Shown: one piece after another, positions 58,293 to 64,000 of the stretch
Layout of the letters: each line of letters starts with the position of its first letter
How positions within the stretch are numbered: the stretch's first letter is position 1
Origin: Prauserella alba
Lineage (GTDB): Bacteria; Actinomycetota; Actinomycetes; Mycobacteriales; Pseudonocardiaceae
Reading direction: 5' to 3'
DNA length: 64,000 nucleotides
Assembly (NCBI RefSeq): GCF_024171735.1
Contig: NZ_JAMTCH010000005.1
Span: 1 to 64,000, forward strand
Made by a program: the position numbers and the translations under genes
The notes under the pieces: model-generated
What the model was told of the DNA's origin: nothing
The model's database searches: none
What the model saw: only the letters and a program-made list of their open reading frames with translations

Positions 58293-61200
58293 GTGACGAT
58301 CGCGATCGACAGATCCGCCGGACCGACGCCCGCCCCCGACCCCGCCGCCCGCGCTGTGTTCCGGACCGGGCCCGCGCCGACCGTCCGGACGCTGCTCGAC
58401 GTCCTCGACGACACCATCTCGCGGCACAAGGACGCGCCTGCGATCGACGACGGGTCGACCGTGCTCACCTACCGCGCCCTCGCCGCCGAGATCGACACCG
58501 TGCGGGCGAAACTGGCGGCCGAGGGTGTCGGGGTCGGCGACCGCGTGGGCATCCGCATCTCGTCGGGCACCACCGAGCTGTACGTGGCGATCCTCGGCGC
58601 GCTCGCCGCGGGCGCCGCCTACGTCCCGGTCGACATCGACGATCCGGAGGAGCGCGCCGCGCTCGTGTTCGACGAGGCGGACGTCGGCGTCGTCCTGCGT
58701 GACGGCGGCGCGATCGAGCGGGTCGGCGAGCCACGCGGCATGCCCGGCACGCCGACGCCCGGCGACGACGCGTGGATCATCTTCACGTCCGGCTCGACCG
58801 GTAAGCCCAAGGGCGTCGCGGTCAGTCACGGCAGCGCGGCCGCGTTCGTCGACGCCGAGGCGCAGTTGTTCCTCACCGACGAACCCCTCGGGCCGGGCGA
58901 CCGCGTGCTCGCCGGGCTTTCGGTGGCGTTCGACGCGTCGTGCGAGGAGATGTGGCTGGCGTGGCGCAACGGCGCCTGCCTCGTTCCCGCCCCGCGCGCG
59001 CTCGTGCGCACCGGCGTCGACCTCGGGCCGTGGCTGCTCGAACGCCGCATCACCGCCGTGTCCACCGTGCCGACCCTCGCCGCGCTGTGGCCCGCCGAGG
59101 CGCTCGAGGACATCCGGCTGCTCATCTTCGGTGGCGAAGCGTGCCCGCCGGAGCTGGCCGCGCGCGTCGCCGTCGAGGGACGCGAGGCGTGGAACACCTA
59201 CGGGCCGACCGAGGCCACCGTCGTCGCCTGCGGGGAGCAGCTGTCCGGCGAGGGCCAGGTGCGGATCGGGCTGCCGCTGCACGGCTGGCAGCTCGCCGTG
59301 GTCGACGACGGCGAGCCCGTGCCGATGGGTGCGACGGGCGAACTCGTGATCGGCGGCGTCGGCCTCGCCCGGTACCTCGACGACGAGAAGGACGCCGAGA
59401 AGTTCGCACCGCTGCCGTCCCTCGGCTGGGAGCGCGCGTACCGCAGCGGTGACCTCGTGCGCGCCGACCCCGAGGGGCTCGTGTTCCTCGGCCGGGCCGA
59501 CGAGCAGGTCAAACTCGGCGGCCGGCGCATCGAACTCGGCGAGGTCGACGGCGCGCTGCAGTCGCTGCCCGGCGTCGCGGGCGCCGCGGCCGCCGTACGC
59601 AAGACCGACGCGGGAAACCAGGTGCTCGTCGGCTACGTGCTGCCAGGGGACGGCGGCGGGTTCGACATCGACTCCGCCACCGCACGGCTGCGGGAGCAGC
59701 TGCCCGCCGCGCTGGTGCCGCTCCTCGCCGTGGTCGCCGACCTGCCGGTGCGCACCTCCGGCAAGGTCGACCGTGCCGCGCTGCCGTGGCCGCTGCCCGC
59801 CGAATCGGTGACCGGCGCCGACGACGGGCTGTCCGGGACCGAGCAGTGGCTGGCCGAGGGGTGGGCCGCGATCCTCGGCGTGACCACCGGCGATCCGAAG
59901 GCCGACTTCTTCACCTGCGGTGGCGGCAGCCTCACAGCCGCACAGCTCGTCGCGCACATCCGCACCCGGTATCCGGACGTGTCGGTCACCGACGTGTACA
60001 CGCATCCGCGGCTCGGCGACCTGGCGGGGAAGCTCGACGGGCTCGAGGGCAGGACCGCACGCCGCCGCCGCGTCTCGCCGGTGCCCGCGTCGACCGGGCT
60101 GGTGCAGAGCCTGCTGCTGATTCCGCTGCTGACGGTCGTCGGGCTGAGATGGACGACGATCGCGGCCGTGCTGTCGACCGCACTCGGCGGGTTCGTCGGT
60201 GTCACCTGGGTGCCGACGGTGCCCTGGTGGGGGATCGCCGCGGCGTGGCTCGTGCTGTTCAGCCCGGCGGGCCGCATCGCGCTCTCCGCGGCGGGGGCCC
60301 GCATGTTGTTGCGCGGCCTGCGACCCGGCCGGTACCCGCGCGGCGGCCGGGTGCATCTGCGGCTGTGGGCGGCGGAACGGCTCGCCGACGTCACCGGAGC
60401 CACCGACGTTGCGGGTGCCTCCTGGATGACCCACTACGCCCGGTTGCTCGGCGCGAAGGTCGGCGAGGACGTCGACCTGCACGCCCCTCCGCCCGTCACC
60501 GGCATGCTCAAGCTCGGCCGCGGCGCCGCCGTCGAACCGGAGACCGACCTGTCCGGCCACTGGGTCGACGGCGACATCGTCCACATCGGCAAGATCCGCA
60601 TCGGCGCGGGCGCGCGAGTGGCCGCGCGGAGCACACTGCTGCCCGGCGCGCGCATCGGAAAGGGAGCCGAGGTTGCCGCCGGTGCGACCGTCCGAGGCGC
60701 CGTTCCCGCAGGCAGGCGCTGGGCCGGATCGCCCGCGGCCGCCGAGTCGAAGGGCGCGCTGCGCTGGCCGTCGAAGACGCCGGCCAGGAAGCGTCGCTGG
60801 GCGTTGGCCTACGGCGTCGCGTCGTTCGTGCTCGGTGTGCTGCCCGCCGCCGCGGCGCTGCCCGCGGTGGCGATCCTCGGCGCCGTGGCCGTTTCCGCGT
60901 CCGGACCCGCCGCGGCGCTCGGCCCGATGCTCGCGCTCGCGCCCGTCGCGGCGCTCGCGTACCTGGGCACGTACGCAGCGCTCGTGCTGGTGGGCGTGCG
61001 CGCGCTCGGGATCGGACTGCGCGAGGGCTTCCACCCCGTGCACAGCAGACTCGCCTGGCAGGTGTGGGCCACCGAACGGCTCATGGACGCCGCCCGCTCG
61101 GCGCTGTTCCCGCTCTACGCCAGCCTGCTGACGCCGGCGTGGCTGCGGCTGCTCGGTGCCAAGGTCGGCAGCGGTGTCGAGGCGTCGACCGTGCTGGCCG

Positions 61201-62216
61201 TGCCCAAGATGACCAAGATCGCCAGCGGAGCGTTCCTCGCCGACGACACGATGGTCGCCGCGTACGAACTCGGCAACGGATGGCTGCACGTCGCGCCCGC
61301 GCGGATCGGCAAGCAGGCGTTCCTCGGCAACTCCGGAATCACGGCGCCCGGCCGGTCGGTGCCCAAGCGCGGGCTGGTCGGCGTGCTCTCGTCGACACCG
61401 AAGAAGGCAAAGAAGGGCTCGTCCTGGCTCGGGATGCCGCCGATGCCGCTGCGACGCGCTGTCGAGAACGGCGCCCGCGACCGCACCTTCGACCCGCCGC
61501 GCAGACTGCAGATCGCGCGCGGCGCCGTGGAACTGTGCCGGGTCGTGCCGGTGATGTGCTCGGTGGCGCTGTCGGTACTGGTCGTCGCGGCGCTGCTCGC
61601 CGTGTGGTCGGCGTACGGACTGTGGGTCGCGGCGCTGTCGTCGGGCGCCGTGCTGCTGGCCGCGGGTGTCGCTGCGGCGGCCGTCGCGACCGTGGCGAAA
61701 TGGTCGCTGGTGGGCCGCTTCCGCGCGAAGGAGTGTCCACTGTGGAGTTCGTTCGTGTGGAGGGCGGAGCTGGCGGACTCGTTCGTCGAAACGCTCGCCG
61801 TGCCGTGGTTCGTCGGCGGGGTCGGCGGGACCCCGCTGCTGCCCGCGTGGCTGCGCACGATGGGCGCGCGGATCGGCAGGGGAACCTGGGTGGAGACGTA
61901 CTGGCTGCCGGAGTCGGACCTCATCCGCATCGGCGACGGCGCCACGGTGAACCGCGGGTGCGTCATCCAGACGCATCTGTTCCATGATCGGATCATGAGC
62001 ATGGACACCGTCGAGTTCGGTGAGGGAGCGACGCTCGGCCCGCACGGCATCGTGCTGCCGGGCGGAGGCGTCGGCGACCGCACCACGGTCGGTCCCGGAT
62101 CACTCGTGACGCGCGGAGACGCCGTGCCCGCCGACTCCCGTTGGCAGGGCAACCCGATCGCCGCGTGGGGTGAGGAGCGCGGGCCGGGGAACGAGTGCGG
62201 GTGGGGTCGCGAATGA
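58293..62216 (+). CDS. Pls/PosA-type single-module NRPS, putative homopoly-amino-acid synthetase
   Basis: This is a 1307-aa membrane NRPS. The adenylation domain (about 20-510) has IIFTSGSTGKPKGVAVSH (A3), NTYGPTEATVVACG (A5), GRADEQVKLGGRRIELGEVD (A8) and RTSGKVDRAALP (A10). The carrier domain (about 525-590) has the phosphopantetheine serine in FFTCGGGSLTAAQL. No condensation or thioesterase domain follows. Instead there are about six TM segments in pairs (near 605-670, 830-905, 1085-1150) separating three beta-helix-like domains with hexapeptide repeats. This layout and size match epsilon-poly-L-lysine synthetase Pls (about 1320 aa). Specificity positions DA..E in SVAFDASCEEMW hint at a cationic amino acid. 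The GTG is at 58293. Confidence 0.87.
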   Translation: MTIAIDRSAGPTPAPDPAARAVFRTGPAPTVRTLLDVLDDTISRHKDAPAIDDGSTVLTYRALAAEIDTVRAKLAAEGVGVGDRVGIRISSGTTELYVAILGALAAGAAYVPVDIDDPEERAALVFDEADVGVVLRDGGAIERVGEPRGMPGTPTPGDDAWIIFTSGSTGKPKGVAVSHGSAAAFVDAEAQLFLTDEPLGPGDRVLAGLSVAFDASCEEMWLAWRNGACLVPAPRALVRTGVDLGPWLLERRITAVSTVPTLAALWPAEALEDIRLLIFGGEACPPELAARVAVEGREAWNTYGPTEATVVACGEQLSGEGQVRIGLPLHGWQLAVVDDGEPVPMGATGELVIGGVGLARYLDDEKDAEKFAPLPSLGWERAYRSGDLVRADPEGLVFLGRADEQVKLGGRRIELGEVDGALQSLPGVAGAAAAVRKTDAGNQVLVGYVLPGDGGGFDIDSATARLREQLPAALVPLLAVVADLPVRTSGKVDRAALPWPLPAESVTGADDGLSGTEQWLAEGWAAILGVTTGDPKADFFTCGGGSLTAAQLVAHIRTRYPDVSVTDVYTHPRLGDLAGKLDGLEGRTARRRRVSPVPASTGLVQSLLLIPLLTVVGLRWTTIAAVLSTALGGFVGVTWVPTVPWWGIAAAWLVLFSPAGRIALSAAGARMLLRGLRPGRYPRGGRVHLRLWAAERLADVTGATDVAGASWMTHYARLLGAKVGEDVDLHAPPPVTGMLKLGRGAAVEPETDLSGHWVDGDIVHIGKIRIGAGARVAARSTLLPGARIGKGAEVAAGATVRGAVPAGRRWAGSPAAAESKGALRWPSKTPARKRRWALAYGVASFVLGVLPAAAALPAVAILGAVAVSASGPAAALGPMLALAPVAALAYLGTYAALVLVGVRALGIGLREGFHPVHSRLAWQVWATERLMDAARSALFPLYASLLTPAWLRLLGAKVGSGVEASTVLAVPKMTKIASGAFLADDTMVAAYELGNGWLHVAPARIGKQAFLGNSGITAPGRSVPKRGLVGVLSSTPKKAKKGSSWLGMPPMPLRRAVENGARDRTFDPPRRLQIARGAVELCRVVPVMCSVALSVLVVAALLAVWSAYGLWVAALSSGAVLLAAGVAAAAVATVAKWSLVGRFRAKECPLWSSFVWRAELADSFVETLAVPWFVGGVGGTPLLPAWLRTMGARIGRGTWVETYWLPESDLIRIGDGATVNRGCVIQTHLFHDRIMSMDTVEFGEGATLGPHGIVLPGGGVGDRTTVGPGSLVTRGDAVPADSRWQGNPIAAWGEERGPGNECGWGRE

Positions 62217-63517
62217 CGGCGCAGCCCGAACCCGGCGCCGACCGCTCCGGCGACTCGTACCTGCCCGCGCACGGCAACGGCGGTTACCGGGTGCGCCGCT
62301 ACGACCTCGACCTCGAGTACCGCCCGGTGGCCAACCGGCTCTCCGGCAGCGCCCGCATCACCGCCGTCGCCACGCAGCCGCTGTCGGCGTTCACGCTCGA
62401 CCTCGCCGAGTTCAAGATCGGCCGCGTGCAGGTGTCGGGCACGAACGCCCGCTACACCCACCGTGGGCACAAACTGCGCGTCAAGCCGGCACGGTCCATC
62501 GCCGAGGGCGGCGAGTTCACCGTCGAGATCCGCTACGCGGGGAACCCGGCACCGATCTCGTCACCGGACTGGGGCGACGTCGGCTGGGACGAGCTCACCG
62601 AGGGCGCGCTCGTGGCGAGCCAGCCGATCGGCGCGCCGACGTGGTTCCCGTGCAACGACCACCCCGCCGACAAGGCCACCTACCGCCTCGCGCTGAAGGT
62701 TCCCGCGCCGTACACGGTCGTCGCGACCGGAAGCCTCGTCGACAAGAGCAGGTCGGCGAGCACGGTGCGCTGGGTGTTCGAACGCGCCGAACCGACGGCG
62801 CCGTACCTGGTGAGTGTCCAAATCGGATACTACGACGACGTCGACCTCGGCGGTGCCCGACTGTACGTGCCCACGCGGCTGCGGGAGAACGCGCTCGTCG
62901 ACTTCGGGCGGCAACCGGACATGCGCACCGCCCTCGAAGGGTGGTTCGGCCCGTACCCGTTCGACGAGTACGCGATCGTGGTCACCGACGACGAGCTCGA
63001 CGACCCCATCGAGGCGCAGGGTATGGCCGTGTTCGGCGCGGGCCACGTCGACGGGCGGCGCACCCACGAACGACTCGTCGTGCACGAGTTCGCGCACCAG
63101 TGGTTCGGCAACAGCCTCACGGTCGCCGACTGGCGGAACATCTGGCTCAACGAGGGCTTCGCGACGTACACCGAATGGTTGTGGTCCGAGGCTTCCGGCG
63201 GTGAATCCGCCGACGCGTTGGCCCACCGTTGGCGCGACGCCCCCGCGCAACAGGGGAGCGGGCCACGCCTCGCCGACCCCGGCGTGACCGGCATGTTCTC
63301 CGAACGCGTCTACAAAGGCGGCGCGCTCACCCTGCACGCCCTGCGCCGCGAACTCGGCGACGACCCGTTCTTCGCACTGCTGCGCGAATGGACGAGCACG
63401 CACCGGCACTCGACCGTGACGACCGCCGACTTCACCGCCCTCGCCGCCCGGTACGCGGGCCGTTCACTGGACCGGTTCTTCACCTCCTGGCTCGACACCG
63501 CCGTGCTGCCCCGGTAG
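62213..63517 (+). CDS. M1-family zinc metallopeptidase, coupled to the Pls-type synthetase
   Basis: This 434-aa protein starts at the ATG overlapping the synthetase stop (ATGA). The N-terminal M1 beta domain (YRVRRYDLDLEYRPVANRLS, TWFPCNDHPADKATYRLALK) leads to the thermolysin-like domain with VVHEFAHQWFGNSLTVADW (HExxH, about 291) and the third ligand in IWLNEGFATYTEW. The usual GxMEN substrate motif is replaced by EAQGMAVFGAGH. Lacking a signal peptide, it would be cytosolic. Zinc aminopeptidases that degrade poly-lysine are known in Pls producers, so a protective or trimming role is plausible (inference). Confidence 0.9.
   Translation: MTAQPEPGADRSGDSYLPAHGNGGYRVRRYDLDLEYRPVANRLSGSARITAVATQPLSAFTLDLAEFKIGRVQVSGTNARYTHRGHKLRVKPARSIAEGGEFTVEIRYAGNPAPISSPDWGDVGWDELTEGALVASQPIGAPTWFPCNDHPADKATYRLALKVPAPYTVVATGSLVDKSRSASTVRWVFERAEPTAPYLVSVQIGYYDDVDLGGARLYVPTRLRENALVDFGRQPDMRTALEGWFGPYPFDEYAIVVTDDELDDPIEAQGMAVFGAGHVDGRRTHERLVVHEFAHQWFGNSLTVADWRNIWLNEGFATYTEWLWSEASGGESADALAHRWRDAPAQQGSGPRLADPGVTGMFSERVYKGGALTLHALRRELGDDPFFALLREWTSTHRHSTVTTADFTALAARYAGRSLDRFFTSWLDTAVLPR

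Positions 63518-63544: not shown

Positions 63545-64000
<456 letters not shown>

Follow-up and report, generated by a model that had tools for sequence, protein, structure and literature searches.

We report a pair of overlapping genes in Prauserella alba (genome size, 5.6 Mb) that we are confident represents a pls-pldII-type operon, encoding a membrane-bound epsilon-poly-L-lysine synthetase and a PldII-type hydrolase, with the activity steps of both enzymes inferred. The pair lies in a 64,000-nucleotide stretch of DNA that was analyzed as a whole (here, the window), and its role is very probably to synthesize epsilon-poly-lysine (epsilon-PL), a known antimicrobial polymer, and subsequently to shorten or degrade it. 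Both genes are present with their domain layout, the synthetase has a substrate pocket identical to that of a lysine enzyme, the two reading frames overlap, and the pair is conserved in relatives (Table 1).

Judging from characterized relatives, the substrate would be lysine, the product would be an exported polymer, and the M1 peptidase would hydrolyze it. The adenylation (A) domain would activate L-lysine with ATP, and the lysine would be loaded on the thiolation (T) domain; the C-terminal membrane-bound domain would then join lysines through isopeptide bonds from alpha-carboxyl to epsilon-amino groups and export the resulting epsilon-poly-L-lysine. Cleavage of epsilon-PL by the zinc peptidase may serve self-protection, turnover, or length control.

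Table 1. Features of the pls-M1 gene pair (window positions; residue numbers refer to the synthetase)
Feature	Positions	Strand	Description and basis
pls	58293..62216	+	GTG start, TGA stop; 1307 aa; Pls/PosA-family NRPS-like synthetase, most likely epsilon-poly-L-lysine synthetase
Adenylation domain	58407..59783	+	approx. residues 39-497; Pfam AMP-binding, 7.2e-57
A-domain pocket			D214 A215 E218 S257 I278 G280 T302 V310 V311 K491; DAESIGTVVK; pocket mapping
Thiolation (carrier) domain	59844..60029	+	Pfam PP-binding 518-579, 4.3e-10; phosphopantetheine Ser546
Membrane-bound polymerization domain (NRPS_term_dom)	60102..62159	+	TIGR02353 604-1289; six membrane segments, three beta-helix segments
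Beta-helix segment 1	60450..60743	+	approx. residues 720-817; DSSP of AlphaFold2 model
Beta-helix segment 2	61152..61454	+	approx. residues 954-1054; DSSP of AlphaFold2 model
Beta-helix segment 3	61857..62165	+	approx. residues 1189-1291; DSSP of AlphaFold2 model
ATGA	62213..62216	+	peptidase start codon overlapping pls stop codon; read from sequence
M1 peptidase gene	62213..63517	+	ATG start; 434 aa; PldII-type two-domain M1 zinc metallopeptidase

Gene layout and synthetase architecture

Both reading frames are open, and the extents assigned to the two genes in the preliminary description proved correct against the listing of open reading frames and the sequence itself. Its proposal of an ATGA-coupled peptidase likewise holds, as the ATG at 62213 falls inside the pls stop; the listing also offers a 440-aa alternative for the M1 protein from an upstream GTG at 62195. 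The synthetase shares 93% identity with the Prauserella salsuginis protein and 91% with the proteins from P. aidingensis and P. isguenensis. Among the adjoining window genes, profile scans recognized MFS, ArsR, and a PEP-utiliser fragment. We considered the upstream MFS and ArsR genes as members of the locus and rejected them: within flanks of up to 6 kb, just 2 of the 80 named loci have homologues, and both (L006 and L007) are contigs from a single P. aidingensis genome. On the minus strand, and thus convergent with M1, 63545-64000 encodes the C-terminal end of an 880-aa protein, continuing to L086:10187, that resembles a rifamycin-inactivating phosphotransferase or phosphoenolpyruvate synthase.

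Membership of the synthetase in the Pls/PosA family follows from its terminal domain, which scores 725.6 bits against a curated cut-off of 423.1 for TIGR02353 ("Pls/PosA family non-ribosomal peptide synthetase," NCBIfam) and 728.1 bits in a genome-wide profile search. The only Pfam domains found at an E value of 0.001 were AMP-binding, PP-binding, and Hexapep (1.1e-8), with no condensation or thioesterase domain. Hydropathy places the membrane segments in three pairs, within residues 597-641, 836-903, and 1077-1140, and adds one weak hydrophobic stretch within the A domain, at residues 95-115. Residues 590-1296 were modeled with AlphaFold2 from a 61-sequence alignment (mean pLDDT, 92.7; pTM, 0.92); the model contains three beta-helix runs, each following a set of long helices, with the membrane helices separating the runs. 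Foldseek pairs individual runs with hexapeptide acyltransferases of the PDB, and the 50 matches listed for the terminal domain are beta-helix proteins that fit single runs or parts of the model, with a query TM of at most 0.15. The model agrees with the published one for PosA, in which three left-handed beta-helices lie over six membrane helices (excerpt of PMC10522769); a literature search for a cryo-EM structure of the synthetase since 2023 found no paper. Profile matches, hydropathy, and the structure model thus bear out a Pls-type synthetase with the A-T-membrane layout and three interleaved beta-helix domains, the architecture of the Pls/PosA family, as first described from the sequence.

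Monomer pocket and conservation of the pair

The closest PDB match to the synthetase is 7wew (1.2e-198), an epsilon-poly-L-lysine synthase A domain that we take to be from Streptomyces albulus Pls, with 66.8% A-domain identity (326 identities over 488 aligned residues). When pocket positions were located by Stachelhaus core motifs and read off the alignment, all 10 residues were the same in the two proteins. The preliminary description had read D, A, and E in the pocket as pointing to a basic monomer, and the mapping to D214, A215, and E218 supports this. In PosA, both amino groups are reported to be held by the Asp of position 1 and the Glu of position 3, and position 2 is the proposed chain-length setter, with Ala in lysine enzymes, Met in the ornithine enzyme, and Phe in diaminopropionate (Dap) or diaminobutyrate (Dab) enzymes (excerpt of PMC10522769). 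The window enzyme has Asp, Ala, and Glu at these three positions and thereby Ala at the proposed chain-length position, a lysine-type pocket. No paper turned up when the pocket string itself was searched as text.

We compared this pocket across two sets of relatives. The same string occurs in all 80 named loci (L005-L084), the top-ranking 80 among 248 confirmed relatives and hence close kin, and in 69 of 90 enzymes from a class-wide sample of 296 genomes, 79 of which had a TIGR02353 match over the cut-off. That sample gave 94 matches, from which two in the window's own genome and two partial ones in G008 were left out; the other 21 analyzed enzymes comprise 5 with a DFE pocket and 16 without a usable one (9 with gaps or unaligned letters, 7 from a frame reading DIWQSTADDK). 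Some class-sample genomes may share species with the named loci, and a single genome supplied both L006 and L007; these counts are of sequences and not of independent events. A phylum-wide sample of 149 genomes had 8 genomes over the TIGR02353 cut-off, with loci analyzed only where they recurred in the class sample. We built a tree from 157 A domains and rooted it on six DFE-pocket enzymes; all 151 DAESIGTVVK enzymes, including 7wew and the window enzyme, were split from the six with support of 0.98; the window enzyme accordingly groups with the characterized Pls, 7wew being the only characterized sequence in the tree. In twelve class-sample loci (L155, L157, L158, L159, L160, L162, L163, L165, L174, L198, L219, and L221), the open frames of the TIGR02353 proteins span just 816-946 aa and leave no room for a fused A domain; several of these loci also hold a distinct NRPS-like frame nearby within the stretch analyzed.

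An M1 gene follows pls in 79 of the 80 named loci; beside the Gordonia otitidis pls (L083), tblastn gave no significant match to the peptidase (best E value, 0.12). In 41 of those 79, the peptidase has a start codon (ATG, GTG, or TTG) in a four-base overlap with the pls stop. In the class sample, an initial adjacency filter paired 61 of the 69 DAESIGTVVK enzymes with M1, and homology-based starts raised this to 64 with an M1 start within 300 nt of pls; two more have M1 at 335 nt and 2137 nt, and none was found in the retrieved stretch beside L175, L200, and L222. As L200 is a divergent enzyme with the same pocket, 25% terminal-domain identity, and no M1 neighbor, sharing the pocket is not enough to define the operon. 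Conversely, M1 lies about 0.9 kb downstream, beyond another gene, for 4 of the 5 sampled DFE-pocket enzymes; the neighbor alone is hence no proof of lysine, and it is the pocket that carries the monomer assignment.

The P. alba genome also encodes a second Pls/PosA synthetase (L085:6407-10516, contig C3 near 871,000; 1369 aa, TIGR02353 551 bits) whose pocket, DFEYLGTVTK, resembles that of Dap/Dab enzymes in having Phe at position 2; the strain may therefore make a second cationic polymer. Directly after this gene lies that of a BPL_N-family protein (L085:10516-11229), homologues of which (59 to 61% identity) occupy the same place beside all four sampled DFEY-pocket enzymes (L228, L229, L230, and L231); a literature search on the role of the BPL_N protein in this position found nothing. 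In those four loci an M1 peptidase with an N-terminus that looks signal-like by eye comes next, at the place where P. alba has a dimethylargininase/arginine-dihydrolase-like gene (L085:11121-12014; below NCBIfam cut-offs). In L226, a synthetase with the pocket DFECLSAVTK overlaps the start of a downstream gene whose N-terminus looks aminotransferase-like, as in published poly-diaminobutyrate clusters, both likenesses being judged by eye.

The partner peptidase

The second gene of the pair matches Pfam Peptidase_M1 (5.9e-25) and M1_N (2e-13), and because its M1 score of 88.6 bits is far over the 27.7-bit cut-off, we file it as a variant M1 peptidase. The family alignment assigns zinc ligands His291, His295, and Glu314, with Glu292 and the catalytic Tyr367; the protein carries HEFAH and the Glu of NEGFATY, giving an HExxH-(18)-E zinc site. 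GxMEN is the exopeptidase motif of M1 enzymes, and the corresponding region here reads DPIEA, in which Gly, Met, and Asn are missing and Glu267 is kept. The absence of a normal GxMEN motif, remarked on in the preliminary description, is thus real except for the Glu. Since every one of the 80 aligned M1 partners (the window and 79 loci) has P[IVLF]EA[QH], the departure marks the group and not the window gene, and we rejected the idea of an unusual peptidase.

A structure model of the protein (pLDDT, 88.2) has the two-domain M1 fold and matches the Deinococcus M1 enzyme 6koz with a TM score of 0.85. Hydropathy revealed no signal or membrane segment (highest 19-residue mean, 1.0), and the window peptidase looks cytosolic. 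From its family and its position in the operon, it is most likely PldII-type, and the earlier suggestion that it could hydrolyze the product finds support, as a possibility, in the degradation of epsilon-PL by S. albulus PldII (excerpt of PMC9223678). A further M1 peptidase of this type (L233, G000:C2:1212312-1213592; 37% identity) is encoded on another contig than pls; its N-terminus looks lipoprotein-like by eye, making it a candidate exported poly-lysine-degrading enzyme.

Published systems and alternative readings

In S. albulus, pldII is translationally coupled to pls, and its product is an epsilon-PL-degrading peptidase said to sit outside the membrane (excerpt of PMC9223678). The window pair shares with that system the domain layout, the ten pocket residues, the A-domain identity given above, and a peptidase coupled to pls (known in S. 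albulus from the literature); it differs in host lineage and in a peptidase without membrane or signal segment, and PldII is likened here by description and not by sequence. The pls of Corynebacterium variabile is also in an operon with a peptidase and yields epsilon-PL when expressed in Streptomyces coelicolor; that genus is another one, and the likeness is again by description and not by sequence (PMC8117764). The same study presents the pls-peptidase operon as the gene context of epsilon-PL synthetases, unlike that of three other isopeptide synthetases, and reports it in Streptomyces and widely in coryneform bacteria. PosA, the delta-poly-L-ornithine synthetase of Acinetobacter baumannii, belongs to the same family and has a modeled C-terminal domain with three beta-helices, but its pocket is DMEHNGTVSK and its operon has a single gene (excerpt of PMC10522769). 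The two-domain M1 enzyme of Deinococcus radiodurans (6a8z, 6koz) shares the fold of the window peptidase at 30 to 31% identity. Among the papers listed by searches pairing poly-lysine with Pseudonocardiaceae, Prauserella, Amycolatopsis, or Pseudonocardia, none was, by its title or abstract opening, on a pls locus in Prauserella.

The Pls/PosA family makes several polymers, and further substrates are expected from members with other pockets (excerpt of PMC10522769), so the window enzyme might use another cationic monomer (ornithine, diaminobutyrate, diaminopropionate, or beta-lysine) and make another homopolymer. We consider this quite improbable: its pocket equals that of the lysine enzyme at every position, where ornithine enzymes would have Met and Dap/Dab enzymes Phe at position 2 (excerpt of PMC10522769), the DFEYLGTVTK pocket sits in the own-genome paralog instead, and the three scanned neighbors include no aminomutase or diaminobutyrate gene. 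An undescribed monomer was rejected on the same identity to the lysine enzyme. The proposal that the product in this lineage may be undescribed is consequently not supported, as the operon context is published (PMC8117764; excerpt of PMC9223678) and an epsilon-poly-L-lysine (NAPAA) cluster with 100% similarity has already been predicted in Amycolatopsis strain MEP2-6 (excerpt of PMC11004387).

The peptidase might be a general aminopeptidase, co-translated by chance and without action on the polymer. Its fold and residues, which match an ordinary two-domain M1 aminopeptidase like the Deinococcus one, would fit this, as would its lack of an export signal by hydropathy; but the pair persists in 79 of the 80 named loci and 64 of the 69 sampled ones, and S. 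albulus PldII hydrolyzes epsilon-PL (excerpt of PMC9223678), which makes this reading unlikely. Against a pls-pldII-type operon count the cytosolic look of the peptidase, set beside a PldII outside the membrane in S. albulus (excerpt of PMC9223678), and the DAESIGTVVK enzymes that have no M1 gene beside them, 3 of the 69 sampled and 1 of the 80 named ones. The function of PldII is itself disputed: a review reports production and polymerization degree unchanged on inactivation of Pld and PldII (excerpt of PMC8506220), whereas its repression gave longer chains in the other account (excerpt of PMC9223678). We give little credence to a variant in which a cytosolic-looking M1 trims chains before export, and not the exported polymer, to yield a poly-lysine unlike S. 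albulus epsilon-PL in length or end structure. It also counts against the operon reading that pls genes can be silent, as in C. variabile, in which no epsilon-PL was detected in culture though its pls works in another host (PMC8117764). A degenerate or silent relic making nothing is nevertheless extremely unlikely here, given two open frames, the kept M1 catalytic residues and A-domain pocket, and a Pls 91 to 93% identical in three other Prauserella species.

A pls-pldII-type operon for epsilon-PL is the reading that we retain, and the window pair gives no pointer to a new polymer. Because its M1 peptidase has no export signal evident by hydropathy, where the peptidase works is the point that the window touches. 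The lysine-type pocket and an M1 partner within 300 nt go closely together in the class sample. Pairs of this kind are widespread in related bacteria and have already been described, and the window adds a Prauserella genome to the many actinobacteria that carry them.
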